A stretch of 49,883 nt of DNA from a virus. The stretch lies in the IMG/VR virus record IMGVR_UViG_3300033141_005088, positions 1 to 49,883 of that record. The stretch is one strand, 5' to 3'. The position numbers and the translations under genes were made by a program. The notes beneath the pieces were generated by a model. The model was given only the letters and a program-made list of their open reading frames with translations. It was not told where the DNA came from and ran no database searches. Shown one piece after another: positions 721 to 45,518 of this stretch; position 1 is the stretch's first letter; every line of letters starts with the position of its first letter.

Positions 721-2739
721 CTATTGCAAAAATTTATATTCATACGGATTATTTTTGGTACCTTCTCCTCTTCTTAGAATTCTTTGTTTCTCGTAAAGCG
801 TGGAAATTGAAGTCCGGGTTGAGTAAGCGCTCAAATTAAGTATTTCCTGAACCTCTTCTATAACAAACCACCTCTCGGGTTCTCTCTGGAACAGTGATAA
901 GACATCGGTCGCTATGGCTTCTTGTCTGGTGAGTCTCCTTCTACCCTCAGTGGTAACAATTACATCAGTTAGTCGGTGTTTACCGGTTTTCCTATCAAAC
1001 ATAAACTCATAATTTTGGCTCTCATCCTCAATAAAGTCTCTCCCTTCTATATCCAGCTTTATATTTCCAGATTCTAGTTTTCTTACTTCTAATTTCATAT
1101 CAACACTTCCCCACAATGCTCCACTTCCTCTAGCACCTTTACCTCCTTTAGGAGTGTGATGGATAATAAAGATTGTGGTTTTAGGAAGTGCTCTCAGCAG
1201 TAGATTTACACTACGCATTACTACTGCTACTCCTTGAGCTGAGTTTTCATCTTGAAGATGAAGAGAATGATAAGGGTCTAAAATTATTATATCAGGTCTT
1301 ACTCTCAAACAATCCTGCCTTAGCTGGCTAAATGATTTTTCGTTATCAAGCAGGGTACTTTGCCGATAAACTACCCTAAAAGAATTCTCTGGAATAGGCC
1401 TGTTTCCTATAAGCTTTTTGAGTCTCTGGGCCAGTCTAACCAAGGACCCTTCTTCTTCAACAAGAAGGGCTTTTAGATTTTCTTGGGTAGGAGTCCAAGT
1501 CTCAACTCCGAGAAACGGCTCTTTATATATAATAGAGACCAACAACTGGAGTGAAATCCAAGTTTTAAAAGTCTTAGGTTCTCCAACCAACAACACTTTA
1601 GTTCCTCTTTCAATCAACTCGGGAATAATCCAGGAAACGTCTTTTTCGGCTTCTTTGAGAACTCTGCTCGGTGGTATGAGCCTGGGAATAGGTTCGATAT
1701 CCTCTGTTGACAGTCCCAGGAGCTCGACTAATACTTTTTCGTTTTTCTTATCCAGCATTACAAAGTCTGCTACATCTTTTCCGTGACTCAAAGGACCAAA
1801 CGGTGGGTAGACTATCTCGCATTTGGTAGCTAGTTCAGTATCTGCGGTTTGAATGTTGTAAACAAGCCTTCTGGAGGCTTTATCAGTTTGTGCAATAACT
1901 ATTATACGGGTAAATAGTGAGAGGTGTCTTGCCCATTCAAGTTTGAAGTAATTTCCAGGAATCCCAAGAACTGGTATTTCTCCATAACCGTATTTTTTGA
2001 GTATTTGTTTTGTAACTAGAGTATCTGTTTCTCCTTCGCAGAGTACAACCGTTTGAGATTTTGTTTCCAGGATTGAATCAAGTTGATATAAGGTTGCATA
2101 GCTGTTTTTGACTCCTGATTTTGCTCCACTAAATGAGCGAGCACGAATTCCGACAACTGTTTTGTTTTGAGTATATGGAAAAAGGAGACATTCCTGTCCT
2201 CCATTGTTATCCTCCGAGGATAGATAACCAACTCCTGCTTCTTTCAGGGTTTCAAACAGGAGGCCTCTAGAGGACATATACTCTCTAACAATATCTAAAT
2301 CAGGTGATAGTGCTTGTTGAGCTTTAGCTACTACTTGGTTCCAATGAGCAAGAGGACTGTATGCTTTTGTAAACGGGTCAATATGGGTTTTCTCAGGTTG
2401 TTCACCAATTTCAGAGACCCGAAAACTTTCAACAATTTGGTTGGCTTCAGACCTAGGGAGGTCTTGAGTTAGCATAAGGAACTCAGCTGCTGAAAGTGTT
2501 TCGCTGTTAGTGGCTAGTTTTGCCATATAGGCTTCTTGGCAATTGGTATTCCAACACTTAAACTGGCCGGTAAACAGGCAAACTCCTCCTTTTTTGCCAG
2601 TATCTTTTTTAGGATGCGTAGGAAGAGGGCAGTTGAAGTTTACCCATCCTTTTTCATTCGGTTCTCCAAGCTCTATATGGTAGTGGGTGTAGAAACGATA
2701 CCATAAAGGCTTTGTATCTCGGAATTCTACTGTTACCAT
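721..2739 (-). CDS. TOPRIM primase fused to RecA-like (AAA_25/RepA) helicase
   Basis: A 672-residue replication protein. A CHC2-like zinc finger is at residues 37-67 (C37, H42, C62, C67). A TOPRIM domain at about 230-300 carries CEGETD with E235 and a later TDK acid. A RecA-fold helicase spans about 360-600 with Walker A GEPKTFKT (386-393), Walker B IIILD (about 484-488) and an IIHHTPKGG sensor-like segment. A winged-helix-like tail follows. Such fusions prime and unwind at phage origins, and this one ends its operon next to the repeat-rich candidate origin. Its start overlaps the stop of the upstream RHH gene, so translation is coupled. Family assignment is firm; hexamer polarity cannot be read. 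Confidence 0.92.
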   Translation of the reverse strand: MVTVEFRDTKPLWYRFYTHYHIELGEPNEKGWVNFNCPLPTHPKKDTGKKGGVCLFTGQFKCWNTNCQEAYMAKLATNSETLSAAEFLMLTQDLPRSEANQIVESFRVSEIGEQPEKTHIDPFTKAYSPLAHWNQVVAKAQQALSPDLDIVREYMSSRGLLFETLKEAGVGYLSSEDNNGGQECLLFPYTQNKTVVGIRARSFSGAKSGVKNSYATLYQLDSILETKSQTVVLCEGETDTLVTKQILKKYGYGEIPVLGIPGNYFKLEWARHLSLFTRIIVIAQTDKASRRLVYNIQTADTELATKCEIVYPPFGPLSHGKDVADFVMLDKKNEKVLVELLGLSTEDIEPIPRLIPPSRVLKEAEKDVSWIIPELIERGTKVLLVGEPKTFKTWISLQLLVSIIYKEPFLGVETWTPTQENLKALLVEEEGSLVRLAQRLKKLIGNRPIPENSFRVVYRQSTLLDNEKSFSQLRQDCLRVRPDIIILDPYHSLHLQDENSAQGVAVVMRSVNLLLRALPKTTIFIIHHTPKGGKGARGSGALWGSVDMKLEVRKLESGNIKLDIEGRDFIEDESQNYEFMFDRKTGKHRLTDVIVTTEGRRRLTRQEAIATDVLSLFQREPERWFVIEEVQEILNLSAYSTRTSISTLYEKQRILRRGEGTKNNPYEYKFLQ

Positions 2740-2877
2740 TTATTTGCTTTCTTCTTTTGATAACCAGAGTTCGATAGCCTCTTTGATTGCTTGTGAAATA
2801 GTTGTTCCTCGTAGCGCTACAGAGGCTTTAAACTCACGGTATAGATTTTCTTCTATAGGAACATTTAATTGTCTCAT
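2740..2877 (-). CDS. Ribbon-helix-helix DNA-binding protein, 45 aa
   Basis: Starts with MRQLNVPIEENLYREFKASV, a beta strand followed by a helix, then RGTTISQAIKEAIELWL, the usual second helix of the CopG/Arc/MetJ fold. The length is right for a minimal RHH dimer. The gene is first in the leftward operon, only a few bases from the -10 at 2884-2889, so the leader is nearly absent and no strong ribosome site is seen. Inference: it may autoregulate and/or bind the flanking inverted repeats to control replication, like plasmid CopG proteins. Confidence 0.85.
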   Translation of the reverse strand: MRQLNVPIEENLYREFKASVALRGTTISQAIKEAIELWLSKEESK

Positions 2878-2883
2878 GCTTTA

Positions 2884-2912
2884 ATTTTATAGATTTTTTA
2901 AACTAATGTCAA
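2884..2912 (-). promoter_or_regulatory. Leftward promoter from the origin region
   Basis: Minus strand TTGACA (2907-2912), 17-base spacer, TAAAAT (2884-2889): a near-consensus sigma-A promoter. The expected transcript starts at or just before the RHH ATG at 2877, giving a leaderless or very short-leader message. It drives the RHH and primase-helicase genes away from the repeats. Confidence 0.7.
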
Positions 2913-2936
2913 GGGGTAAAAATCATTTTGCGTTTG

Positions 2937-2989
2937 AATTCGTTTGATATAGAGGGTATATTATATATACCCTCTATATCAAACGAATT
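2937..2989. repeat. Perfect palindrome, 24-bp arms, in the putative origin
   Basis: Arms 2937-2960 and 2966-2989 are exact reverse complements around the 5-base centre TTATA. Each arm ends in the AATTCGTTTGA iteron and the centre is very AT-rich (GGGTATATTATATATACCC). This can extrude as a cruciform or serve as a two-fold protein site. It lies just upstream of the leftward promoter, next to the replication genes. Confidence 0.9.
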
Positions 2990-3058
2990 TTTCGAACGAG
3001 TTTGAAATTCGTTTGAAATCAAAAGAAACTAACACCTATGATATGCTAAGGTTTTTCC

Positions 3059-3136
3059 ATTCGTTTGAAATTCGTTTGAAGCTCAAAATCAAATTTTTTT
3101 CCCTTCAAACGAATTTCAAACGAATTTCAAACGAAT
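3059..3136. repeat. 11-bp iterons (ATTCGTTTGAA) in direct and inverted arrays
   Basis: Two forward copies abut at 3059-3069 and 3070-3080; three reverse copies (TTCAAACGAAT) follow at 3104-3114, 3115-3125 and 3126-3136 with an exact 11-bp period. Further copies or near copies occur near 2930, 2938, 2979 and 3007. One helical turn per copy suggests cooperative binding of an initiator on one DNA face. The gap between the arrays (3081-3103) is AT-rich. Confidence 0.85.
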
Positions 3137-3140
3137 TTTC

Positions 3141-3180
3141 AGTTATTATCAGTTATTATCAGTTATTATCAGTTATTATC
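3141..3180. repeat. Four exact 10-bp tandem repeats (AGTTATTATC)
   Basis: Positions 3141-3150, 3151-3160, 3161-3170 and 3171-3180 are identical and are flanked by partial units. AT-rich 10-bp direct repeats resemble DNA-unwinding elements beside iterons in replicons. There is no spacer variation, so this is not a CRISPR array. Confidence 0.85.
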
Positions 3181-3187
3181 AGCTCTA

Positions 3188-3235
3188 AAGTATTAAAACA
3201 TGTATTCTTTCGAAAGAATAGTTGTATTAATACTT
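3188..3235. repeat. Nested symmetric dyad in the origin region
   Basis: A perfect 16-bp palindrome ATTCTTTCGAAAGAAT (3204-3219) sits exactly centred inside a second inverted repeat, AAGTATTAA (3188-3196) and TTAATACTT (3227-3235); the gap is 7 bases on each side. The whole structure shares one dyad axis. It could be an operator for a tetramer or two dimers controlling rightward transcription or replication start. A TATAAT lies just downstream at 3247-3252 without a good -35. Confidence 0.8.
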
Positions 3236-3296
3236 GTGTTAATGTTTATAATAGCTGGTTATTTGCTGACGTTTTTCAAAAATTTCAAAAAAAGGG

Positions 3297-3325
3297 TTGA
3301 TTTTTGATGGATATTAGGGTATTAT
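3297..3325 (+). promoter_or_regulatory. Rightward promoter for the packaging/structural genes
   Basis: TTGATT (3297-3302), 17 bases, TATTAT (3320-3325), followed by the first gene of the late block at 3344. The sequence GGGTTGATTTTTGAT matches that of the leftward promoter near 0.7 kb, so both may be read by the same holoenzyme and regulator. Confidence 0.6.
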
Positions 3326-3343
3326 TATGAACGGAGGAGAAGT

Positions 3344-3685
3344 ATGGCCTCAAAATGGGATTTATGTAGATTATTTCGCAGGCAGTACTGGCTCTACTTC
3401 CGCCTTTTTCCAGGTTCAAACCGTGATTTCTCCACTCAATTTTTCAGCCCCTCATTCGAGTACTCTAAAGTTGAAGAGTATGGAATTAGGAGGGCTGAAG
3501 AACTTTGGTTTATCAACAGGGTACTCAGATATCCTTGGACCAAGGACCAAGTAGAATCGTTGGAGTATATTATCCAGGGTAGAGATAGATGGGTAAGAAG
3601 AGATGTGATTAAGATACTGAGGAGGTTATATGCCAGGAGGGAGACCAAGCAAGTTGACCCCAGAGGTACAGGAAAAGTTAGTTAA
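3344..3685 (+). CDS. Hypothetical protein before terminase, 113 aa
   Basis: A strong GGAGGAGAAGT site precedes the ATG at 3344, which decides this frame over the overlapping one that starts at 3327. The product is very rich in Arg, Tyr, Phe and Trp (RLFRRQYWLYFRLF near the start), with a helical, basic C-terminal half. The gene overlaps the terminase small subunit by 56 bases in another frame. No family is recognised. A DNA-binding helper for packaging would suit its charge and place, but that is inference. Confidence 0.6.
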   Translation: MASKWDLCRLFRRQYWLYFRLFPGSNRDFSTQFFSPSFEYSKVEEYGIRRAEELWFINRVLRYPWTKDQVESLEYIIQGRDRWVRRDVIKILRRLYARRETKQVDPRGTGKVS

Positions 3686-4100
3686 ATATATAAGAGATGG
3701 AAATTTTTATTATACAGCATGCGCGTGCGTAGGTGTAAGTTATCCACGCTTCCGGGCTTGGATGTTAAAAGGGATGGAGGCTAAGTCCGGGAAATACCGA
3801 GAGTTGTATAATGCGGTTTTAAAAGCTGAAGCTGAATGCGAGGATAGACTGGTTAAGCAGTGGCTTAAACAAGGGCCTCGAGATTGGCACGCGATTAAAG
3901 ACTTTTTGGAAAAGAGAAGTTATGTTAGATGGGGTAAGAGAGAAAAGCTTACACTTGAAACTGAAGAGCCTTTGAAGGTTGAAATCTCAGAGAAGCGCAG
4001 TGCTCTAAAAGAACTCCTGTCAGCAATAGCAGAGAGGGTAAAGGATGACAGAGAGCCTGATAACAAAGATAGCTCGGATGAATCCAAAAGAGAGGGATAA
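3630..4100 (+). CDS. Terminase small subunit
   Basis: 156 residues; the ATG at 3630 follows GGAGGTTAT. The N-terminus, MPGGRPSKLTPEVQEKLVKY then ACACVGVSYPRFRAWM, is the helix-turn-helix typical of phage small terminases that recognise the packaging site. The middle (LYNAVLKAEAECEDRLVKQW) fits the oligomerisation helices. The charged tail (about residues 120-156) overlaps the large-subunit start by 56 bases, and likely contacts that subunit. The gene order small then large terminase supports the call. Confidence 0.88.
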   Translation: MPGGRPSKLTPEVQEKLVKYIRDGNFYYTACACVGVSYPRFRAWMLKGMEAKSGKYRELYNAVLKAEAECEDRLVKQWLKQGPRDWHAIKDFLEKRSYVRWGKREKLTLETEEPLKVEISEKRSALKELLSAIAERVKDDREPDNKDSSDESKREG

Positions 4101-5343
4101 GTATATTGATAGGTTGAGCGGTGAAGAAATAGATAAGCTGATGTACACTTGGAGATTCTGGGCACGTCCAGAACAACTCCCACCACCAGAACCTTGGTCA
4201 GTTTGGCTTGTTATGGCAGGGCGAGGTTGGGGAAAGACAAGAGTAGGAGCTGAATGGATAAGAGCTCAAGCAGAATCAGGACGTTCAGGAGATAGACTAG
4301 GGTTAATTGGGCCTACAGCGGCAGATGTTAGAGATGTTATGGTTGAAGGAGAATCAGGGATTATGTCCATTTCTCCACCAAATTTCAGGCCTGTTTATGA
4401 GCCTTCAAAACGCCGTTTGATTTGGCCTAATGGAGTTATGGCGATTACTTATTCAGCAGAAGAACCCGAAAGGCTTAGAGGTCCACAGCACCATAAGATA
4501 TGGGCGGATGAGTTTGCTTCCTGGAAGTATCCTGAGGCTTGGGACATGGCCTTACTTGGTTTAAGGCTTGGTTCGAATCCTCAGGCGGTTGTTACAGCAA
4601 CTCCGAAACCTGTTAGGATTCTCAGAGAGCTCCTAAAGTCAAAATCTACAGTTGTTACAGGTGGTTCGACTTATGATAACAAGGCGAATCTCCCTCCTCT
4701 GTTCTTTGAGAAGATAATCTCAAAGTATGAAGGTACAAGACTTGGTAAACAGGAGCTATATGCTGAACTACTTGAAGATTTACCCGGAGCTTTGTGGACA
4801 AGAAAGATGATAGAAGATGCTAGAGTCAAGAGTCATCCAGATTTAGTTCGAGTTGTGGTCGCTATTGACCCGGCTGTAACCAGTAAGGATGATTCCGATG
4901 AAACTGGAATTACTGTTACAGGTTTAGGGACAGACGGGTATGGGTATGTACTTGATGATTTGTCTTTGAGAGCGTCTCCGGATGTTTGGTGTGGAAGAGC
5001 AGTTAAAGCTTTTTATAAGTGGAAGGCAGATAGAATTATTGGTGAGGTGAATAACGGAGGAGATTTGATTGAGACTGTGTTAAGAACTGTTGACCCTAAT
5101 GTTTCTTATAAGGCTGTAAGAGCAAGCAGGGGTAAAAGAGTTAGAGCAGAGCCAGTTTCAGCTCTCTATGAACAAGGCAAAGTAAAGCATGTTGGTGAGT
5201 TCCCTGATTTAGAAGACCAAATGTGCTCGTTTCTCCCGGAATCAACGGAGAGCCCTGATAGAGTAGATAGTTTAGTTTGGGGGTTAACAGAGTTGATGCT
5301 TGGTGAGAGGCATGAAATTCATATAGGAAGGGTATTTGATTGA
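4045..5343 (+). CDS. Terminase large subunit (packaging ATPase/nuclease)
   Basis: 432 residues. ATPase half: Walker A GRGWGKT at 59-65, Walker B with KIWADE at about 151-156, and a coupling segment VVTATPKP near 183. Nuclease half (RNase H fold): AIDPA with D275, GEVNNGG with E334, and a last acid in DSLVWGL near 413. Motor and nuclease together translocate DNA into the prohead and cut concatemers. The size and the unbroken motifs argue for an active enzyme. The stop overlaps the portal start. Confidence 0.95.
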   Translation: MTESLITKIARMNPKERDKYIDRLSGEEIDKLMYTWRFWARPEQLPPPEPWSVWLVMAGRGWGKTRVGAEWIRAQAESGRSGDRLGLIGPTAADVRDVMVEGESGIMSISPPNFRPVYEPSKRRLIWPNGVMAITYSAEEPERLRGPQHHKIWADEFASWKYPEAWDMALLGLRLGSNPQAVVTATPKPVRILRELLKSKSTVVTGGSTYDNKANLPPLFFEKIISKYEGTRLGKQELYAELLEDLPGALWTRKMIEDARVKSHPDLVRVVVAIDPAVTSKDDSDETGITVTGLGTDGYGYVLDDLSLRASPDVWCGRAVKAFYKWKADRIIGEVNNGGDLIETVLRTVDPNVSYKAVRASRGKRVRAEPVSALYEQGKVKHVGEFPDLEDQMCSFLPESTESPDRVDSLVWGLTELMLGERHEIHIGRVFD

Positions 5344-7892
5344 TGAATTTTTTAGATAGAGTTAAATTTTTATTTAGATTTAACACAAAAAGTTACAAGC
5401 TTTCAGAACTACTACCATCATGGTATTCGGGAAGGCCTGTATGGACGGACTGGAGTACAAAGAGAGCAATAAAGTACGGCTTTAAGTCCTCCACATGGGT
5501 TTATGCATGTATATATAAGATTATGAAAGCAGTAGCGAGTGTTCCTTGGAAAGTAAGAGATGCAAACACAAAAGAAGATATAGAAAACAGTCCACTGGAG
5601 GAACTTTTAAGAAAACCAAATCCTTGGATGAGTGGGCAGAATTTATTTGAAAGGCTGGTTACTCATCTCTATCTTGGAGGCAATGGTATCTGGGGGAAGG
5701 TAAGAGTAAATAGAATAGTTGTTGAACTCTGGCCGTATCATCCTGATTCAATAAGACCGGTACCTTCAAGAACTGAGTTTATATTAAAGTATACGTATAA
5801 AGATGGAAACATTGTAAGGGATATAGATTCAGCAGATATAATTCATTTTATGTTTTGTGACCCTGATAATCCTTATTGGGGGCTTGCGCCTCTCCAGGCA
5901 GGAGCAAAAACTGTAGATACAGATGTTGAGGCAGTAAATTGGAATAAGATAGCGCTTCAAAATAGAGCTATAACAGACGGGGTATTTTCTTTTAAAGATT
6001 TTCTTACAAATGCCCAGTGGCAAGCAGCAAGAGAAAAACTGAGGGAGCAGCACCAAGGTTCTACTAATGCAAGAAATCCATGGGTGCTTGATGGTGGAGC
6101 AACTTGGCAACAGATGAGTCTATCGCCTGCAGAGATGGATTTTATAAATTCAAGGAAAATGACTGCTACTGAAATCTGTGCAATTTTTCAAGTACCTCCA
6201 CCACTTGTAGGGTTAACCGAGAAAACTCCCTACGCCAATATGAAAGAGGCAAGGGCAATATTTTGGCTTGATACAATAATACCACTACTTGAGGACCTTC
6301 AAAGTGGAATAAATTTGGTACTTACTCCTGAGTTTGGGCAGGGTATTGAGGTTTATCCTGACCTATCAGGGGTTGAAGCGTTAAAGAAGTATTTTGCTGA
6401 ACAAGTAGAAACTGCTGAAAAACTGTGGAATATGGGAGTTCCATTTAATGAAATAAATAGAAGGTTAGAGCTTGGATTTGATGAAATACCAGGCGGAGAT
6501 ACAGCTTATGTTGCAGGAAATAAACTACCTGTTGGAACCATAGAAGAAGGAAAAGAGATAGCTTACTTTAGGATAAAAAAAAATCCTAAAACGTTAAACC
6601 TGCAAACTGAGGAGCAAAAAGCTGCTTACTGGAAAGCATTTGATAGGAGAAGGATTGGTTGGTTTGGTCAAGCTTCGAGAATGTTTAGGAACAATTTTAA
6701 CGAAGAAGCAGAGTTATTAAGTGAAGCTTATAAAAAAGGGAAAGATATAAATGAGGTTTTAGATAGCCGTCTCAATCGGTGGATAGACACATTGAAAAGG
6801 TTGTACTTGCTTGTGATAGAGGATTTTGGCACAGAAACTTACGAAGAGCTTTTGAAGGGCCATTCAGATTATAGAAGAAAGGATTTTAACCCGTTTGGTT
6901 CATTTATATTAGCCTGGGCGGAAGAGACTGCAGCTAAAAGAGCAACTTTGCTTTTAGGGACGTCCAAGAAGTTTGCAAATAAAATAATAACCCAAGGAGT
7001 AGAAGAAAACTTGACTACCGACAAGATATCAAGAAATTTAAGAGAATTCTATAGTGAAGATGCAAACTATCGTGCTATGAGGATGGCTCGTACTGAGGTT
7101 GTAGCTGCTTCAAATTATGGCTCTTATATGGGGGCAAAGGATACCGCAGTACAAAATTTAAAGAAGACCTGGATATCTGCAAGGGATAGTAGAGTAAGAG
7201 ATAGTCATTCTAATATAGATGGTCAAACTGTGGATATTGATGGTAAATTTAATGTAAACGGGTATATGATGGGATACCCGGGAGACCCTGCAGGGCCAGC
7301 AGAAGAGGTTATACATTGTAGATGTACTTTGGCTTATAAGACTGTTGTAACCAGAACAACAAAACCTTCTTATGCAGAAGAATATAGTGAGGATTTCAAG
7401 AAATCAGCTGCTGAAGTAGAAAATGAAATTAAGACTAGAAGGACAGAAAAGGCATTTGTTTTAGATAAGGATGGTAAGATTTTACTTGAGAAGGAAGGGG
7501 CAAAAGAGAATGTAACCTTTACTTCATATGAACTTGAGCGGCTTGAAGGCAATACTCTTATTCATAATCACCCTAATGGATTTAGTTTTTCGTTAGATGA
7601 TGTAACAATGTTTCTTTCGTACAAAGAAAGGGAGATGAGAGCTATAGGGAAATTGCGTGGCAAAGACGTATATAGATATATCTTAAAAACAAGGAAGCCA
7701 GGAGTTTACCCTAATGAAGCTCAAGTAAGAGCTGATTACTTAGCTGAATATAGAAGAGCTAGAGAGAATTATGCGAAAAGAATAAGTAAAGTTGGTGTAA
7801 ACCGGGCAGGCTTTGAGGCTTACAATGAAATGATGGAAAACCTTGTAAAAAAACACAAGGAACTTATTTATATATGTGAGAAGGTGGAATGA
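5340..7892 (+). CDS. Portal protein fused to MuF-like and JAB-like domains
   Basis: 850 residues, about twice a normal HK97-type portal. Residues 1 to about 400 match the portal family ([20 protein letters not shown]; later [17 protein letters not shown]). About 545-670 is a MuF minor-head domain with the hallmark [17 protein letters not shown] and ending in [12 protein letters not shown]. About 690-850 carries [14 protein letters not shown] (HNHP near 741), reminiscent of JAB/MPN metallopeptidases and RadC. The portal forms the DNA-entry ring, and MuF domains are carried inside the head. The frame is continuous, so this is a true fusion. Confidence 0.88.
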
Positions 7893-24417: not shown

Positions 24418-24969
24418 ATGAAAGCAGAAGAATTTGTAATATCAGCAGGAGCAGGAAAATTATATACAGAAGAAATTGAAGTTGAAACAGGGCAGGGTAT
24501 AAAAACCTATGAAGAGATAATAATTACGGATGCTGGAGTTCAAGTTGGTACTTTAAGTGCAATTGGTAACGCAATAAAGAAAACTGAAAAGAGTATCATA
24601 GGTGTACTAAGCTCTATAGGATTGGCAGCTAAAAAAAGTACAGAAGTTTTGGCAGGCGTACTAAGGATAGTAGGTACACTTCAGAAGGTAACAAGCAAAG
24701 CATTGGGCGGTATCTTAAGTGCAATAGGTACTTTACGTAGGGTAGTTAGAATAACGGTAAGCGGAGTTTTAAGCGCCGCAGGAGTACTTACAAAATTATT
24801 GAGATTTACTGTAGGTGGCATCTTAACTTTTGGTGCAGTAGTCGGCAGATTAGTAAGAATAACAATTGTTGGTAGTCTTAGATTTTTTGGTACAATTAGT
24901 GATTTTCTGATTAAATTATTTCCAAGAAGTTTACGTAGGATAATACTTTTAATAAGGGATAAAAAATGA
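24418..24969 (+). CDS. Protein made of seven 18-residue amphipathic repeats
   Basis: 183 residues. After a 43-residue head come seven units of 18 residues (starting at about 44, 62, 80, 98, 116, 134 and 152; the last is 17 long), each like GVLSSIGLAAKKSTEVLA: Gly, a hydrophobic pair, Gly at position 7, then a basic stretch. Eighteen residues are five helical turns. The repeats grow more hydrophobic toward the C-terminus, so membrane or hub-channel contact is possible. It lies between the fiber protein and the tail lysin; the stop overlaps the lysin start. Confidence 0.65.
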   Translation: MKAEEFVISAGAGKLYTEEIEVETGQGIKTYEEIIITDAGVQVGTLSAIGNAIKKTEKSIIGVLSSIGLAAKKSTEVLAGVLRIVGTLQKVTSKALGGILSAIGTLRRVVRITVSGVLSAAGVLTKLLRFTVGGILTFGAVVGRLVRITIVGSLRFFGTISDFLIKLFPRSLRRIILLIRDKK

Positions 24970-27257
24970 GTGAACCAAACGTAATAAGTGTAAAAAGTCC
25001 ATTAAAGCTAGTAGTTACGAAAGAAATAAATGGGTTATGGTATGCTGACTTAAATATAGAAAGCGATGATTATATAGAGAATGAGTGCTATGTAGAATTT
25101 GACGGTGAGCTCTATATTGTTAAGAAAATAGATAAGATAAAAGATGGCGAAGGAAATTTTTATTTCAAAGTTCGGCTTGAGCACTTAATGACAGAACTCA
25201 ACGATTGGACTATTGAAAGTTTTGATAAGAATAATATTACTGCAGAAGATTATTTAGATTTTGTTTTGGCTGGAACTACCTGGAGCAAAGGCACTGTTGC
25301 AAACTTAGGTACAGAAAATGTCAATAGCGATAGACGGATTACAGTACTTGAAGCTATTAGCAGAGGAGTAAAGGTTTTTGGCGGAGAGTTATATTTTAAT
25401 CAAGATAGAACAGTTGATTGGAAGTCTACTATTGGAACATCCACAAAAGTACAAATCAGATATGACAAAAATAGCAATTATATTGAAAGAAAACAAGATA
25501 CAAGTAAGTTAGTAACAAGACTATATCCGTATGGAGAAGACAATATTACAATTAACACCAAAATATTAGAAAATTGTGATAAGCCTGCTAATTGGGAAAC
25601 AACAGATGAAGAAAATTTTGCTAAATCTCCTGACAGCAATGATAAAAAACAAGGGTCTGCTTGTATTAAGATAGATGCTACGATGACTAATTCGTTGAAT
25701 GATATAATTAGTAGAGATTTAGGTGCTGGGTCAGAGATAGATTTAAGCAGTTATACAAAAATAAAATTCTTTATAAAAGCCTCTCGTACTGGAACAAATC
25801 TACAAATAGGAATAGGCGAATCAGCTTGGAATGACAATACACATAATATTAATATAACTACAGCAGATGAATGGCAGGAAGAAGAATGGGATATTTCAGG
25901 TATTGCAGATGCTGATAAAGATGCAATTAGATATATAGGACTAAAATGCACAAATGCAGATGCCGCAAATACTATTAGGCTTGATTATATAAGAGCTTTT
26001 AACGGTGAGATATATCTGGAAAGCGCTCATATAAATGACTATAAAAATCCTAAAGAAGTTGCATTGTTTACTACTTTTAGTGATGCTGATGAGTTAAAAG
26101 CATATGCTCAAGATTATTTGGATTTGTATGATACTCCTATCTATAGCTATAAAGTTAATATTGTTGATTTGTCAGTTATGCCGACTTGGACAAATGAAGA
26201 AATTAATCTGGGTGATACAGTTAGAGTTTACGATGCAGATTTAGGATTAAATGTAGACTGTAGAGTTAAGAAGATTGTAAAAGATTTGTTAGACCCTACA
26301 AAAATACAATTAGAACTAACAAATAGTATAGAAAATGCGGCTTACTCGCTTGCAAACTATTATCAGAAGTTAGGCTACTCAATGCCGTTTCATAATGATG
26401 ATAGAGTTGTAAATGCGGCTTCTGTTAGGATAGGTTATTTAGCTTCATCTGTAATTAGAACAGGTTCTATATTTGCTAACCATTACAACCAACTTCGAAA
26501 TGTATGGCAAATGAATTGGCAAGATAGCTTAGATAGCAGTTATCCTTTGGAATGCGAGTTTTTTATGCCTAAAAATGTAGACGAGATTAAGTCTTGCTGG
26601 GTTCATATAGTTGGTAGGAATTTTAGAGCTTATAGCAAAGGTGCGGCTTCTGGTGGCGGGCAGACTTCAAGTGCAGGCGGTGGGCAAACAACATCTAGTG
26701 GTAGTTCTCATGACCATACTGTAAGTGGACAGACTGCAGAAAGTAGTGGAGCGCATGACCATGATGTAATTTATGATTTAACTGGTACATCTGACCAAAC
26801 CGACAATGACGTCTATGGTATAAGTGGTGAAACTTCTGGTCATACTCATGCTTCAGGTAGTTATAAAGCAGCTGACCATTATCATCAATATTATTGGACG
26901 CACTCAACAGGAGCTTCTGGCGGCCATTCACATCCTGTAACAGGTACAACTTCATCTTCAGAAAGTTCACATACTCATACAGTATCAAACCATACACATA
27001 CAGTATCAGACCATACGCATAATTTAGTTTTTGGAATTTATGAATCTACAGACCCTACAGGAGTTAACGTGTATGTAGATGATGGAGATGGTTATGGAAG
27101 TTCAGTAGCTTCAGACGATAGTCCAGTTGCGATAGATGTGAATATTGCAAGTGAACTTACTACGGTTTCTGGATGGAAGAAAATAAAAATAACTTCAACT
27201 AGACTTGGAAGAGTATCAGTTGCAGTAATTATGGATTTAACATTATCAAGTATTTGA
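24966..27257 (+). CDS. Tail-associated hub/endopeptidase-like protein with sugar-binding and HxH fiber domains
   Basis: 763 residues. About 1-195 and 345-470 form the prophage-tail/gp27-like hub (LYIVKKIDKIKDGEGNFYFK; INLGDTVRVYDADLGLNVDC). At about 197-340 a beta-sandwich is inserted, paralogous to the protein at 23366. From about 560 to 690 there is a Ser/Gly/His-rich stretch with many HxH motifs (SSHDHTVSGQ, SGHTHASG, SHTHTVSNHTHTVSDHTH), as in metal-knitted fiber tips. A small beta domain ends it. It should sit at the tail tip; no clear catalytic peptidase motif is visible. Confidence 0.8.
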   Translation: MSEPNVISVKSPLKLVVTKEINGLWYADLNIESDDYIENECYVEFDGELYIVKKIDKIKDGEGNFYFKVRLEHLMTELNDWTIESFDKNNITAEDYLDFVLAGTTWSKGTVANLGTENVNSDRRITVLEAISRGVKVFGGELYFNQDRTVDWKSTIGTSTKVQIRYDKNSNYIERKQDTSKLVTRLYPYGEDNITINTKILENCDKPANWETTDEENFAKSPDSNDKKQGSACIKIDATMTNSLNDIISRDLGAGSEIDLSSYTKIKFFIKASRTGTNLQIGIGESAWNDNTHNINITTADEWQEEEWDISGIADADKDAIRYIGLKCTNADAANTIRLDYIRAFNGEIYLESAHINDYKNPKEVALFTTFSDADELKAYAQDYLDLYDTPIYSYKVNIVDLSVMPTWTNEEINLGDTVRVYDADLGLNVDCRVKKIVKDLLDPTKIQLELTNSIENAAYSLANYYQKLGYSMPFHNDDRVVNAASVRIGYLASSVIRTGSIFANHYNQLRNVWQMNWQDSLDSSYPLECEFFMPKNVDEIKSCWVHIVGRNFRAYSKGAASGGGQTSSAGGGQTTSSGSSHDHTVSGQTAESSGAHDHDVIYDLTGTSDQTDNDVYGISGETSGHTHASGSYKAADHYHQYYWTHSTGASGGHSHPVTGTTSSSESSHTHTVSNHTHTVSDHTHNLVFGIYESTDPTGVNVYVDDGDGYGSSVASDDSPVAIDVNIASELTTVSGWKKIKITSTRLGRVSVAVIMDLTLSSI

Positions 27258-32071: not shown

Positions 32072-34411
32072 TTACTTATTTCTCTTATCAAGGCTACCCC
32101 AACGCTCTCCAATATTAATACCTATCTTAAATGGAATTGGAGAATCAATAGGACAATTTTCCTCCATCTCATACTTTACCACTGAGATGACTTCATCGAC
32201 TTTATCCGGCTTAACCTCTATTAGGATTGAATCATGAACTGTTAGCAGAATACGTGCTTCATCTGGATTAAAACGATTGTGCAGTCTTACCAGAGCTGTT
32301 AAACATAAATCAGATGCCATTGACTGAATTGGTGCGTTTACCGCTTGCCTAAGAATCTCTCCTTTATTGCTATTGAGGATAATCGGAAATCTCCTTTTTC
32401 TTCCAAAGGGAGTAGTTACATATCCTTGAGTGATAGCTTGGTTTCTAACTTCCTCCATCCATCCTGCCAGACCTCGAAATCTGGAGAGGAAGGAATCAAT
32501 GTATCGTTGAGCCTCTGCAACGGAACACTTTAGTTCTCCGAAAGCTAGAGACTTGGCTCCTCGTCCATAAATAATCCCAAAATCAATAAATTTAGCTACA
32601 TGGCGTTGGCGTTCTGTTACCTTTTCTGCCGGGATATTAAACACCTCTGAAGCTACCATTCTATGTACATCTTTGTCTTCTTTATAGTATTTTGTTAGGA
32701 GTTCATCTCCACTATAGTAAGTTGCACACCTGAGTTCTAGTTGGCTATAATCAGCTTCAACAAGTACCCATCCTGGAGTTGCGACAAAAGCATCCCGAAT
32801 TAAAGGGCCGACCAGAGCTGGGATATTCTGAAGATTCGGATTGCGGCTTGAAAGCCTTCCCGTAACCGTTCCATGGAGAAGGAAATCAGCGTGAACTCGA
32901 CTATCTGGAGAGACTTTACTTAAAAGACCTTCAACAAATGTCCCTTTTAGGGTTTGGAGCTTGCGGTATTCTAAAATAAGTTTCACAGCTTCGTGCTGGT
33001 CAGCCATCTGTCTGAGGGCTCTTTTATTTGTCGAAGTTCCTTTCAACCTAAGTTTGCCATACAAAAACTCGCTTACCTGTTTTGGTGAATTCGGGTTGAA
33101 CTTAGGGCCTGCAACCTCTTGAAGCTTTAGTAGAATACTACCCAGTTGCTGGTTTATTTGGTTTTGCAGGCTTGCCAAATATTCGATATCAAGTCGTACC
33201 CCTACCAACTCAATCTGGCTAAGAGCCAAAGAAGCAGGAACCAAGATTTTATCGTGAACATCTCTAACTTCATCTTTCTCCATATCTCGAACTAAATCTT
33301 GACTGAGAAGTAGAGTGTAATAGGTATCTAAAGCATTATATTTTGACAACATTTCAAAAGGTAAATCCTTATAATTTGGTTCTACATACTCAGGAGGCTC
33401 GAGATTAGACTTCTTTGCAAGCCGAATCTCCTTTAGTCTCTCCGCTCTCAAATCTCTGAGAAATTGTTTAACCGGAAGAGTGTAATCTGGAGCATCATAG
33501 TAATCTCGGGCTATCTCCTCGAGCCTATGCCCGCCTCGCCTTTCGTCTAAGGTATAATGAGCAAGCATCGTATCAATCTGAGGTTCCCACTGAATCCCAA
33601 GCTTGTAGTTTAGAAACTTAGCATCAAAGCTTACATTTTGACCGCCTGAGATTATAGGAGATTCAAAAAGCTCTTTCAATTTAGAGACTACAAATTTATT
33701 TCTAAGCAGTTCTCCGGGTATCTGATAGCATTTTTCTTTCCTTGATTGAATCCCTATCAGTAAGATTTCACCAACCAGAGGGTTTAAATCCGTTGTTTCA
33801 ATATCACAAACAAACCTACCATCGCGTTTAACATCTTCAATCATTTCAAGAACGTCCATAATATTTCTACAGACTTTAATCTCCGGTATTTTGTGTTCAA
33901 TAACGTTCTCAGAGTCAAAGTCAACTATTTTCTTTACATCTTTTGCAAAGTCTGTGAAATCTATAGGAACTCGGAGAATCTTAGCGGGATGCCAAGTTAT
34001 AATTGCGTGAGCCTGGAGTTCTTCAATCCAAAAAACTCTCCCTCGATTTGTTGTAATAGGCAATCGTTCAGGAGCCACTGATTGAGCTGCTATAGCCCCA
34101 ACCAGTAGAAGCTTCTTACACCCTCGAATCTCCTCAAAAAGCCTATCTCTGCAGCATTCAATAGCTAAACTATCGGGAGTTGCATTACCTGGAGGGTGGC
34201 AGAGGCAGGCATTTGTTATCCAGATAGATTCGGGTTTAATACCTGCTTCTTGGAGAGTCATCCGTAGAATCTGCCCTGCCTTCCCTACAAAAGGCTTTCC
34301 GAGTTTAGCTTCCATTTGTCCTGGAGCCTCTCCAACTACCACAAAATCTTTCTTGGTTCCAACTCCAGGGACTTTTGGTCTTCCATTTAATGGACACTCT
34401 TTACATCTCAA
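32072..34411 (-). CDS. Fusion of family-4-type uracil-DNA glycosylase and DNA polymerase I
   Basis: 779 residues, TTG start. About 1-185 is a uracil-DNA glycosylase: CKECPLNG, VVGEAPGQMEAKLGKPFVGK and ACLCHPPGN, with four Cys for an iron-sulphur cluster. About 195-370 is a 3'-5' exonuclease (FVCDIETTDLNP). About 430-779 is family-A polymerase: motif A VEADYSQLELR, motif B RHVAKFIDFGIIYG, motif C LTVHDS. No 5' nuclease domain. It should copy the phage genome while removing uracil. Fusion reading frame is continuous. Confidence 0.93.
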   Translation of the reverse strand: MRCKECPLNGRPKVPGVGTKKDFVVVGEAPGQMEAKLGKPFVGKAGQILRMTLQEAGIKPESIWITNACLCHPPGNATPDSLAIECCRDRLFEEIRGCKKLLLVGAIAAQSVAPERLPITTNRGRVFWIEELQAHAIITWHPAKILRVPIDFTDFAKDVKKIVDFDSENVIEHKIPEIKVCRNIMDVLEMIEDVKRDGRFVCDIETTDLNPLVGEILLIGIQSRKEKCYQIPGELLRNKFVVSKLKELFESPIISGGQNVSFDAKFLNYKLGIQWEPQIDTMLAHYTLDERRGGHRLEEIARDYYDAPDYTLPVKQFLRDLRAERLKEIRLAKKSNLEPPEYVEPNYKDLPFEMLSKYNALDTYYTLLLSQDLVRDMEKDEVRDVHDKILVPASLALSQIELVGVRLDIEYLASLQNQINQQLGSILLKLQEVAGPKFNPNSPKQVSEFLYGKLRLKGTSTNKRALRQMADQHEAVKLILEYRKLQTLKGTFVEGLLSKVSPDSRVHADFLLHGTVTGRLSSRNPNLQNIPALVGPLIRDAFVATPGWVLVEADYSQLELRCATYYSGDELLTKYYKEDKDVHRMVASEVFNIPAEKVTERQRHVAKFIDFGIIYGRGAKSLAFGELKCSVAEAQRYIDSFLSRFRGLAGWMEEVRNQAITQGYVTTPFGRKRRFPIILNSNKGEILRQAVNAPIQSMASDLCLTALVRLHNRFNPDEARILLTVHDSILIEVKPDKVDEVISVVKYEMEENCPIDSPIPFKIGINIGERWGSLDKRNK

Positions 34412-38243: not shown

Positions 38244-38621
38244 CTATTCTCTATACGTAACTCCTGCTTTTTCACTTTCCCAAATTGTCACAGACTCGAC
38301 CTCAAGTACATATAAATCCTCATCTTTCCTTAACAGCCTCTCTATATCTCTGTATATCCTTTTTGCAAGAAACTCGGCCGTAGGATTTTCGGTCTCATAC
38401 AACTCATTGAGGTACACATGGTCCGGGATAACTGCTTTCAAAATTCCTTTCAACTTTTTGAAATCCACAAACATGTTATCCTTTGGTAATGTCCGTCCAA
38501 GATGAGTAAATTCAACCTCAGCTTTTATAGTGTGCCCGTGTAAATTTCGGCAGGGTCCCTTGTAACTCTCGAGCTTGTGAGCTACGGCTCCGGTCGCTCT
38601 TATAATATACGCAAATGACAC
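38244..38621 (-). CDS. queD: 6-carboxy-tetrahydropterin synthase QueD
   Basis: I choose GTG 38621, directly after GAGGAGGAGTAAA; the upstream TTG (38636) lies inside that site. About 125 residues: GAVAHKLE, CRNLHGHTIKAEVEF with the catalytic Cys and two zinc His, DFKKLKGILK, and the terminal VTIWESEKAG. It makes 6-carboxytetrahydropterin from dihydroneopterin triphosphate, the second step to preQ0. Part of the block with folE, queE and queC. Confidence 0.9.
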   Translation of the reverse strand: MSFAYIIRATGAVAHKLESYKGPCRNLHGHTIKAEVEFTHLGRTLPKDNMFVDFKKLKGILKAVIPDHVYLNELYETENPTAEFLAKRIYRDIERLLRKDEDLYVLEVESVTIWESEKAGVTYRE

Positions 38622-38622
38622 T

Positions 38623-38817
38623 TTACTCCTCCTCAAAAATTTTCTTTAGTTTTTTAAACATTACATCATAGTCTAATAGTTTATGATTAACTACTTTTTC
38701 TACAAAGCTATCTAAAAGCTTCTCCATTTTTTTATATTTTATATTTTCTCTATATTGTTTTCTATCAGCTTCTTTTTCCATATTATATACTGTTAAAAAT
38801 CCGTCTTTCTGCACCAT
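38623..38817 (-). CDS. Hypothetical charged protein between folE and queD, 64 aa
   Basis: GCGAGGAAAAATA precedes the ATG. Lys/Glu-rich and mostly helical (MEKLLDSFVEKVVNHKLLDY, KKLKKIFEEE). The stop lies just ahead of the queD start, so the two are coupled. No motif is recognised and its A/T content is higher than the flanking queuosine genes. It may be a recent insertion in that block. Confidence 0.6.
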   Translation of the reverse strand: MVQKDGFLTVYNMEKEADRKQYRENIKYKKMEKLLDSFVEKVVNHKLLDYDVMFKKLKKIFEEE

Positions 38818-38839
38818 TATTTTTCCTCGCCTCTCCCTC

Positions 38840-39421
38840 CTAAATTCTTCTATCTTCGTAAGACCTAATCAAGCTTAAGAACTCGCTTTTTGCATTAGGG
38901 TTGTCGCGGAATATCCCTTTGAGAGAACTTGTTATAACTGCTGAATTCTGCTTAATACCTCTAGCTACCATACACATGTGCACTCCTTTTATCATAACGA
39001 TACTTCCTAAACACTCGAGCTCCTTATATAGAGCGTCTGCCAGAACCTCGGTATAAGTTTCCTGAAGAAATGGGTACTTGGCCATCACTACAACAAACCT
39101 GGCTATCTTCGATAGTCCAATAACATACTTCTTCGGAATGTACCCGACACTTACCCTATACAAAACCGGAAGTAGATGGTGGGGGCAGAGAGAAGATGCT
39201 TGAATCCCCGGTACAATCACCATCTCATTATTTGTTGAAGGGAATCTGGCTTTTGTAAACTTCCGAATCTGTGAATCAATTTCTTCTCGCGGTGAAATGT
39301 ACTCAGACAAATATGTAGCAATCCTCTTAGGGGTATCAACAAAATTCGGGTCATTAAGGTCAACCCCTAAGGCTTTCAACCCTTGTCTAATAGCTTCAGT
39401 AGTTAGTGTTATCTTTTTCAT
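38840..39421 (-). CDS. folE: GTP cyclohydrolase I (FolE)
   Basis: Start at 39421, after AAGGAGGAGAGT and overlapping the queE stop; an earlier in-frame start at 39445 is unlikely. About 193 residues: VDTPKRIATYLSE, SSLCPHHLLPV with the zinc Cys/His, GYIPKKYVIGLSKIARFV, LQETYTEVLADAL, MCMVARGIKQ. It converts GTP to dihydroneopterin triphosphate, the entry to preQ0. All expected active-site residues seem present. Confidence 0.93.
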   Translation of the reverse strand: MKKITLTTEAIRQGLKALGVDLNDPNFVDTPKRIATYLSEYISPREEIDSQIRKFTKARFPSTNNEMVIVPGIQASSLCPHHLLPVLYRVSVGYIPKKYVIGLSKIARFVVVMAKYPFLQETYTEVLADALYKELECLGSIVMIKGVHMCMVARGIKQNSAVITSSLKGIFRDNPNAKSEFLSLIRSYEDRRI

Positions 39422-40089
39422 ACTCTCCTCCTTTTTGAGCCCCAAATTACCTTATGTAATTGGGTTTGCAAAATACAATGTCTAAACGCGCTATCTTTGA
39501 CCATTAAAGCTGCTACATCTTGCATTAGCTTCTTATCCCCCCAAACCGGTGAAATATAAACAGGAGGGAGAAACTTCCTATATAGCTGCAGAACCTCTCT
39601 TACGAAAGCCATATCATCCAAGCTAGTTACTACAAACTTTACTACACCAGTATCCCTCAATTTTGGCAGGTTTTCTTTATAAATTCTAATATTCTTGTTC
39701 CCACTGCCTGGAGTTTTTATATCCATAACGACTTGTACTTGTAACCCCTGAGTAAACAACGCAGACGGAATTATCACCTCACCATTAGTCTCAAGTACAA
39801 TGTTTATAGATGGCTTCTTGGCAACTAACTTCTTTATGAGAATTAACGTACTCGCTGCTTGTAATAGTGGCTCACCACCTGTAATACATACATAGCTGGC
39901 TTGAGAATCTATTACCCTGGAGACTAAAGAGCTAATTTGTGCTACATATCCTGAGCTCTTGTCTTGAGCGTAGATTGTATCACAATAATTGCAACGTAGA
40001 TTGCAACCGGCTGTACGTATGAAATAGGTAACCCTGCCAGAAGAAGGCCCTTCGCCTTGAATGGATGTAAATTCTTCATTTACAAGCAT
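39418..40089 (-). CDS. queE: 7-carboxy-7-deazaguanine synthase QueE (radical SAM)
   Basis: Start at 40089, after ACGAAGGAGGAAGAC. About 223 residues. EEFTSIQGEGPSSGRVTYFI, then AGCNLRCNYCDT with the CxxxCxxC iron-sulphur cluster motif, ITGGEPLLQ and VLETNGE. It rearranges carboxytetrahydropterin to CDG. It overlaps both queC (start inside its end) and folE (ATGA), so the three are translated as a unit. Confidence 0.93.
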   Translation of the reverse strand: MLVNEEFTSIQGEGPSSGRVTYFIRTAGCNLRCNYCDTIYAQDKSSGYVAQISSLVSRVIDSQASYVCITGGEPLLQAASTLILIKKLVAKKPSINIVLETNGEVIIPSALFTQGLQVQVVMDIKTPGSGNKNIRIYKENLPKLRDTGVVKFVVTSLDDMAFVREVLQLYRKFLPPVYISPVWGDKKLMQDVAALMVKDSAFRHCILQTQLHKVIWGSKRRRV

Positions 40090-40765
40090 GTCTTCCTCCT
40101 TCGTACTCAATCGGGTCCGCAACTCCTGCTTTTGAAAAAGCCTCAAGCCTGCTTAAACAAGCTGAACACTTCCCGCAGGCTTTCTCTTTCCCGTTATAAC
40201 AAGTCCAGGTTAAATGGAATGGGGCACCGAGCTGAACTCCTACTTCAACAATTTCAGCTTTTGTTAAGTACTGGAATGGAACTATGAGACGGACTTGGTG
40301 ATAAGTCCCAACATAAATCGCGCTGCCTATTGCTCCATTAAACTCGGGAGTACAGTCGGGGTAAGCCCACTCAGCAGCATCATCAGCGTGAGCTCCATAG
40401 TAAATCAAGTCGGCTCCTTGACTCAAAGCTACTGCCGCTGCGCTCGAGAGAAGAACTCCATTTCGAAAAGGTACATATGTTGGAGAAACTCCTTGAATTT
40501 CAGCATAAGACTTCTCGGGAACTCCCTTTCTCCAGTTGATTAAGGAACTATCTGACCCCTTGAAAATATCCGGGATTACTATCTCCTGCCATAAGAGAAT
40601 CCCTAAGAACTTCGCAACTTTCTTCGCGGAGCTAATCTCTTTTTGATGCCTTTGTCCGTAATTAATAGTCAGTCCAATCACATTTTTTGCTCCGTGGTTC
40701 TTTACGGCCAGAGCTCCAACCGTTGTACTATCCATCCCTCCGGATAGTAATACTATAGCTGTCAT
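40076..40765 (-). CDS. queC: PreQ0 synthase QueC
   Basis: 229 residues, AAAGGAAATTACA site. PP-loop SGGMDSTTVGALAV for ATP, TINYGQRHQKEI, PTYVPFRNGVLLSSAAAVAL, and the C-terminal zinc site TCYNGKEKACGKCSACLSRL. It turns CDG into preQ0 with ammonia and ATP. The product can feed the DpdA-like enzyme. No QueF is seen in the window, so reduction to preQ1 is not expected. Confidence 0.94.
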   Translation of the reverse strand: MTAIVLLSGGMDSTTVGALAVKNHGAKNVIGLTINYGQRHQKEISSAKKVAKFLGILLWQEIVIPDIFKGSDSSLINWRKGVPEKSYAEIQGVSPTYVPFRNGVLLSSAAAVALSQGADLIYYGAHADDAAEWAYPDCTPEFNGAIGSAIYVGTYHQVRLIVPFQYLTKAEIVEVGVQLGAPFHLTWTCYNGKEKACGKCSACLSRLEAFSKAGVADPIEYEGGRHACK

Positions 40766-44682: not shown

Positions 44683-44904
44683 TTAGACTGTTTTCTCCTT
44701 ATAACAGCTAGTATGTAAGTGGGCGCCATCATCATCTATGGCGTGGGAAAGTGCTTCTATCTTCTTACCGCAGACACTACAATAAAGGATGTTTCCACAC
44801 TCATCTCTTGCATATCTGAACTGCTCACTGTATTCATCATAAGACCCGAAGTACCCTACTGGTTTATGCCCGTACTTGTTACTCTCTCCCATCTTAATGC
44901 TCAT
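44683..44904 (-). CDS. Zinc-binding small protein, 73 aa
   Basis: AGGAGGAGGAAAA site; ATGA overlap with the upstream gene. CGNILYCSVCGKKIEALSHA, then DDDGAHLHTSCYKE: Cys at about 36, 42, 45 and 67 with His near the end, a plausible LIM-like single zinc site. Last gene before the intergenic promoter at 44.6 kb. Function unknown. Confidence 0.65.
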   Translation of the reverse strand: MSIKMGESNKYGHKPVGYFGSYDEYSEQFRYARDECGNILYCSVCGKKIEALSHAIDDDGAHLHTSCYKEKTV

Positions 44905-45518
44905 TTTTCCTCCTCCTCCTTAAAAATAACTCCCTCATTTATTACTCTTACCTTTAATCTCTGCTTTCCAAACTTAAATGCTTTTTCTTTATCCTTAAAT
45001 AGAATGTCTATCCAATTTTCGTCTTCCCAACCATCTTCTGTTTTATAACCTAATCCTCTATCCAAGATTATAAAAGCACCCATTCCTTCTATTTCTACAA
45101 CAGAATAGAGTGGAATACAGTTAGAAGCTGCAATAGGAAGCTTGGACATATATGGTTTGTTTACATCAAACCCTGCAGCTACAATATTGTTCGTCCCTTG
45201 AGGATAAGTAGGGTCATTAGCAGTATAAGCGGTTACCGTGAATTCTCTCCACTTGTTACCCTCATTATCAAAATAATATGGTATCTCCCGCTTCACGTAT
45301 TTTATTCTTACGTCTCTGATTGTTTCTTTAATCTTTTGGGAATCAAAACTTTTAGTTTTATTATCCGACAATCTTGCCAAACTAAATTTCCCGCTTATAC
45401 CCAAGTAATTTAGACAAATTGATATAGTTAGCGCAACCAGCATAATGTAAATCACAAAAGTTTTCACTACGCTAATCAATGCTCTTCTTTTTTGCCAAGA
45501 AAACTTAAATTTGTTCAT
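44901..45518 (-). CDS. Membrane-anchored 3D-domain protein (cell-wall-active)
   Basis: 205 residues. A basic start and one transmembrane helix at about 17-38 (VVKTFVIYIMLVALTISICL). After a linker, residues 90-200 are a 3D domain: FTVTAYTANDPTYPQGTNNI, AASNCIPLYSVVEIEGMGAF, ILDRGLGY and WIDILF with its conserved Asp triad. The fold is shared with MltA, YuiC and Rpf-like lytic transglycosylases. Located in the early region, away from the lysis genes, so it may remodel the wall rather than lyse. Confidence 0.8.
   Translation of the reverse strand: MNKFKFSWQKRRALISVVKTFVIYIMLVALTISICLNYLGISGKFSLARLSDNKTKSFDSQKIKETIRDVRIKYVKREIPYYFDNEGNKWREFTVTAYTANDPTYPQGTNNIVAAGFDVNKPYMSKLPIAASNCIPLYSVVEIEGMGAFIILDRGLGYKTEDGWEDENWIDILFKDKEKAFKFGKQRLKVRVINEGVIFKEEEEK

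Follow-up and report, generated by a model that had tools for sequence, protein, structure and literature searches.

A candidate replication origin combining iterons and a perfect palindrome between the divergent transcription arms of a phage genome

The phage record IMGVR_UViG_3300033141_005088 (positions 1 to 49,883, analysed whole and called here the window) carries, between 2929 and 3235, a real and rare composite structure in which iterons, a perfect palindrome, an AT-rich tandem array and a nested dyad are packed into the gap between two divergent transcription arms. We take this element to be the replication origin of the phage, of the iteron type, with a probability of about 0.6, and it probably also controls the promoters of both flanking arms. 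An origin had been proposed in the original prediction, and it is the best supported of the readings weighed below; a related phage genome, G001, adds indirect evidence in the form of a shared order of parts, a near-identical iteron and shared replication genes alongside unrelated terminases. Rival readings remain, and the role given to the 10-bp array and the nested dyad is unsupported because neither has a counterpart in G001.

Anatomy of the element

The 2929-3235 region has a G+C content of 27% and contains the following parts.

2937-2989, no strand: perfect palindrome with 25-bp arms and a 3-nt spacer, one iteron in each arm
2938-3136: iteron cluster of eight strong 11-bp sites, at 2938, 3007, 3059 and 3070 on the plus strand and at 2978, 3104, 3115 and 3126 on the minus strand
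3059-3125: inverted arrangement of iteron pairs with 30-bp arms, 90% complementary (hairpin -23.9 kcal/mol)
3135-3182, plus strand: AT-rich 10-bp tandem array, a candidate unwinding element (4.8 copies by TRF)
3188-3235: nested dyad, AAGTATTAA / 7 nt / ATTCTTTCGAAAGAAT / 7 nt / TTAATACTT, read from the sequence

The palindrome had been predicted with arms of 24 bp; it is present, and its arms measure 25 bp. As single-stranded DNA it is predicted to fold into a hairpin of -24.1 kcal/mol (z -12.6). The iteron core TTCGTTTGA occurs in eight exact copies between 2939 and 3135, four in each orientation, and this 9-mer has no further copy in the whole 49.9-kb window. Spacing within the tandem pairs and triplets is exactly 11 bp. 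Six weaker sites were seen in 2880-3240 against 0.175 expected from the rest of the window, and because these accompany the eight exact cores, the predicted figure of about nine 11-bp iterons in both orientations is a fair one. The four AT-rich 10-bp repeats of the original prediction correspond to four exact copies of TTATTATCAG at 3143-3182, and the nested dyad likewise has the symmetric 7-base gaps described there; it was also scored as an 89% palindrome, and its centre is formed by two degenerate iterons (3204 and 3209) that overlap.

Two features of iteron-type origins are found together here, a repeat cluster unique to the site and an adjacent AT-rich segment. Of all 100-bp segments in the record, the one that begins at 3153 ranks fifth in instability (99.93rd percentile), behind four less stable places. 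Predicted curvature is not outstanding, with a maximum in 2881-3320 at the 98.45th percentile. No DnaA boxes (TTATNCACA) were found within the element, and no Rfam families or tRNA in the window.

Chance does not readily produce such a structure. Among 300 dinucleotide shuffles of the region, no 9-mer reached more than 3 copies (8 observed) and the longest palindrome arms were 11 bp (25 observed), so that 0 of 300 come near. Of the ten best 307-bp segments listed for each measure, those outside the element hold at most 3 copies and arms of at most 10 bp. A base rate was taken from 89 other loci (L006-L094; L001-L005 are copies of the window and were excluded). In none of them does any 9-mer reach five copies within 300 bp, and palindrome arms of at least 20 bp occur only at L006 and L009, which lie on the same contig.

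Genomic setting and promoters

The element occupies the gap from which two arms diverge: on the left (minus strand) a replication arm, which includes genes for an RHH protein, a Toprim/RepA-type primase-helicase and PolA, and on the right (plus strand) a terminase/structural arm. The features flanking it are listed here.

721-2739, minus strand: primase-helicase of 672 aa, the candidate initiator (AAA_25, E 2e-20; primase/helicase PHROGs)
2740-2877, minus strand: RHH protein of 45 aa, first gene of the replication arm (ParG 25.1 bits and RHH_1 21.8 bits, both above cut-off)
2884-2912, minus strand: predicted replication-arm promoter, TTGACA-17-TAAAAT, 11 of 12 consensus matches
3297-3325, plus strand: predicted structural-arm promoter, TTGATT-17-TATTAT, 9 of 12 consensus matches
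3630-4100, plus strand: small terminase subunit (phrog_4102, E 2.7e-25), the near gene on the structural side

The primase-helicase and RHH genes thus adjoin the element as the original prediction had them. Its proposal that transcription diverges from here also agrees with the predicted arrangement, with outward promoter-like sites at both edges and arms on opposite strands. Besides these two sites, six promoter-like matches were listed in the gap, where shuffles gave a mean of 3.0. The palindrome and the iterons fall outside both predicted transcripts and therefore function at the DNA level. On the plus strand the palindrome resembles a terminator; we discarded this possibility, as it lies upstream of both predicted arm promoters and as a terminator would serve no gene. 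The predicted -10 box on the left ends 7 nt upstream of the RHH start codon, with no Shine-Dalgarno sequence visible (2875-2912, minus strand). The predicted transcription start coincides with that start codon, so the RHH message may be leaderless.

To the right of the element lie an unassigned ORF, the terminase genes and the portal gene; a single 850-aa ORF (5340-7892, plus strand) encodes the portal as a fusion with a Mu F-like head morphogenesis domain. Further along, a 21-bp tandem repeat of 2.5 copies (26970-27021), whose unit is a multiple of three, lies within a 763-aa ORF (24966-27257). Other replication genes occupy 30.6-40.8 kb on the primase strand, encoding PolA, an SNF2 helicase, an SSB-like protein, Sak4 and a PD-(D/E)XK nuclease. 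PolA (32072-34411, minus strand) carries an N-terminal uracil-DNA-glycosylase domain and has full-length tblastn matches of 27-31% identity in several phages (coverage 99%). A 7-deazaguanine (preQ0) gene set at 38244-40765 (minus strand), comprising PTPS/QueD, GTP cyclohydrolase I, a radical SAM (QueE-like) protein and QueC, suggests that the phage DNA is modified. An endolysin-like match to L-alanyl-D-glutamate peptidase (44901-45518, minus strand) also lies within the replication arm. End repeats are absent from the record. When its two ends (1 / 49883) are joined, a minus-strand ORF cut by them reads on without a stop for 87 codons, consistent with a genome that is complete and circularly permuted, even though the IMG/VR entry is classed as linear.

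GC skew had been suggested as a check on the origin. A switch in whole-composition skew is indeed seen at about 2-3 kb, with another at 30.6 kb, but both coincide with changes in gene orientation, and because skew flips where orientation flips it cannot separate an origin from gene orientation. On the coding strand, third-position skew declines through the right arm, from 0.49 close to the element to values of -0.09 to 0.17 past 21.8 kb; the left arm has no such trend, with -0.05 in the primase gene. We consider GC skew not diagnostic and do not use it as evidence for or against an origin.

Comparison with a related phage

G001 (IMGVR_UViG_3300031746_000103, 32,224 bp; element locus L009) encodes a primase 49% identical and a PolA 47% identical to those of the window. 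Its terminases match other PHROGs than the window's, and the window's large terminase finds no tblastn match in G001; pairwise comparison gives E 1.0 for the small subunits and E 0.012 over 89 columns for the large. The divergent gap of G001 (L009:2764-3348) nevertheless contains a perfect palindrome with 29-bp arms (-34.5 kcal/mol as single-stranded DNA), TCAGAACGA in three copies and a pair of promoter-like sites pointing outward. Starting from the replication arm, the order of parts is the same in the two phages: a promoter, the palindrome, the iterons and the other promoter. G001 has three good iterons and lacks both the 10-bp array and the nested dyad, and about 4.6 kb separate its primase gene from the element; these differences count against the origin reading. 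Its iterons are at the divergence and not beside the RHH gene. A second G001 palindrome, at L009:15602-15643, has GC-rich 15-bp arms and a 12-nt spacer.

The motif itself is conserved in this one relative. The best G001 iteron, TTTCAGAACGAA, is one insertion away from the window's TTTCAAACGAA, and no other site in the three pieces of G001 lies within one edit of the latter. Of 20,000 letter-shuffled motifs, 16 match as closely; the motif was picked after inspection, so that this match is supportive and not a formal test. Random 12-mers gave 3 of 20,000 within one edit, but they were drawn from L009 and may include the motif itself, making the letter shuffle the fairer control.

Carriers of the element are scarce, and that G001 is the single relative with it counts against the origin reading. 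In primase and motif scans of viral_contigs it was the sole full-length primase-helicase relative; two partial 26-27% matches (L010 and L011) have no iteron-like sites, and the exact tandem-iteron pattern was found 0 times. Further carriers were found neither in genome_contigs nor in plasmids, the DNA of 2400-3900 had no match in phages, and a PolA scan yielded two distant loci. The more distant relatives MW202455, PMBT14, Serbin and Lebethron have the divergence without the repeats, which likewise weighs against an origin.

Alternatives to an origin

The element could be a regulatory hub alone, a bidirectional operator at which the RHH protein or another phage protein switches the early and late arms. 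This would suit a site that both phages have between a pair of divergent promoter-like sites; the RHH gene of the window is also the first of its arm, and a weak iteron (2897-2907, 8.0 bits) does fall in the spacer of the replication-arm promoter. We think it unlikely that this is the whole function: the eight strong iterons are all clear of the two predicted promoters, the G001 iterons are placed away from the RHH gene, and a perfect palindrome of 25-29 bp would seem unnecessary for an operator.

A packaging start, a cos or pac site to which the small terminase subunit would bind, does not figure in the original prediction and also has to be weighed, because the element is on the terminase side, upstream of the small-terminase gene, in both phages; repeats and dyads are known at the cos sites of some phages. 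The site is not conserved with the terminase family, however. The best 80 of 198 matched large-terminase relatives, many with a short upstream flank, comprise 72 without a site, 8 with one and 0 with an iteron cluster. The record moreover reads through the element and ends elsewhere, inside the ORF that is open across the junction. The near-identical motif in two phages with unrelated terminases, together with 0 of 80 terminase relatives having the cluster, indicates that the element follows the replication module and not the packaging family, and makes a packaging start improbable. A partition, telomere-resolution or attachment site is, taken jointly, very improbable: among Pfam models the RHH protein matches ParG best, and the palindrome is long and perfect, but the record has no match to AAA_31 ParA-like proteins (PF13614), tyrosine integrases (PF00589) or telomere resolvases (PF16684), models that matched 14 of 14, 14 of 14 and 1 of 14 control genomes, respectively, in a search confined to these three families.

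Candidate iteron-binding proteins

There are two candidates for binding the iterons, the RHH protein and the C-terminal winged helix of the primase-helicase, the latter being at least as likely. Toprim and zinc-finger motifs of the primase-helicase were read by eye; PHROG primase families match it, and Pfam Toprim does so below cut-off. Its AAA_25 helicase family, which we take to include RSF1010 RepA, presumably differs from that of the P4 protein. The model of the whole protein is poor (mean pLDDT 52.8), and the C-terminal domain was therefore used alone; it is modelled as a winged helix (pLDDT 90.1), with a best Foldseek match to 3r0a (E 1.2e-4) and VIA-align Z scores of up to 11.4 (1qgp, rmsd 1.7, 73 aligned). 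The winged helix is a common fold, and the model does not establish a function.

Identity of the domain between the window and G001 is 37%. The RHH proteins of the two phages give no BLASTP alignment, and while that of the window is above the ParG cut-off (phmmer E 5e-4 against ParG 1p94), that of G001 is slightly below it. Because the winged helix changes less, and the iteron changes little, we favour on these sequence comparisons the winged helix as the iteron reader and RHH as its partner or repressor.

In favour of the origin reading, several relatives have a small RHH- or HTH-like ORF immediately before the primase. Six phages have an ORF of 45-67 aa directly before the primase-helicase gene, as follows.

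Small ORF before primase: window 2740-2877; L009:7816-7971; L099:43847-44047; L101:38782-38955; L100:39365-39547; L102:36870-37037

Two are RHH-like, three are HTH-like (one above cut-off) and one has no assignment: HTH_17 is above cut-off in MW202455, PMBT14 and Serbin have sub-threshold HTH matches, and Lebethron gave nothing helpful. Unrelated small DNA-binding folds seem to share this position.

Proposed mechanism and known systems

By analogy with P4 alpha and RSF1010, the best reading of the element is an origin with their logic, in which the palindrome would be a loading site for primase or helicase. The iterons would be bound by an initiator, for which the primase-helicase's C-terminal winged helix is the likeliest candidate, with the 45-aa RHH protein acting as a co-binder or autorepressor. 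Binding on one face of the helix, given the 11-bp spacing, would strain and open the AT-rich DNA at 3135-3245. The palindrome, with iterons in its arms, would then extrude, or fold when single-stranded, and mark where the primase-helicase loads and primes. Phage PolA would take over, and forks would leave both ways, co-directionally with transcription. The same iteron-bound complex probably regulates the two flanking promoters.

In P4 alpha, a Toprim-type primase, a helicase and a C-terminal winged helix form one protein, and the winged helix is reported to bind origin repeats before unwinding and priming (PMC4234260). The phage protein would combine the same three parts, its Toprim primase being a candidate assignment, and its origin would likewise have repeats; it differs in its RepA-type AAA_25 helicase, in the separate RHH gene that precedes it and in iterons that lie partly within a perfect palindrome. 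At RSF1010 oriV, the same source describes iterons bound by the initiator and unwinding by RepA helicase, which exposes the ssiA/ssiB stem-loops where primase starts (PMC4234260). Iterons, a RepA-type helicase and a stem-loop as the proposed priming site are common to both, whereas RSF1010 uses three separate proteins and two ssi stem-loops and the phage has one fused protein and one long perfect palindrome. RHH could stand in place of RSF1010 RepC as a separate iteron-binding initiator.

In the crenarchaeal plasmid pRN1, that source describes an operon in which a small repressor gene precedes that of a primase-helicase ending in a winged helix, and a long stem-loop that replication requires (PMC4234260). 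The phage resembles it in both the operon and the long stem-loop; pRN1 differs in its archaeo-eukaryotic primase and SF3 helicase, in lacking iterons and in having the stem-loop downstream of the operon. The G001 RHH protein matches the ORF56 model only far below cut-off. The origin of the Vibrio satellite PLE is a non-coding region of several repeats, one of them the demonstrated iteron, which contains inverted sub-repeats (PMC7145576). That combination of iterons and inverted repeats is similar to the phage element, but the proteins are unrelated, the PLE initiator being a RepA_N protein that is not predicted to act as a primase or helicase. For phage TLS, no lambda-like repeats were found (PMC11447400).

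The origin proposed here is not described in the open-access literature searched, and the fusion of iterons and palindrome in what is most likely an iteron-type origin is unusual. It is possible, as a tentative extension, that the element represents an undescribed class of phage origin, in which iterons lie in the arms of a perfect palindrome and a single protein with Toprim primase, RepA-type helicase and winged helix can read the repeats as duplex as well as the hairpin once extruded. In such a class, the gene immediately upstream would encode a small DNA-binding partner, an RHH protein in this phage and an HTH-like one in some of the distant relatives, and the module would travel with the replication genes across exchanges of the packaging module.

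If the origin reading is true, features like those of P4 (a winged helix that reads repeats), RSF1010 (priming at a stem-loop) and pRN1 (a small DNA-binding protein with a primase-helicase) would be united in one phage. Little-known PolA-encoding phages with 7-deazaguanine genes would gain a compact origin with a defined candidate initiator, and the combination of iterons and a long palindrome at a transcription divergence would provide a sequence handle for finding origins in uncultivated phages.
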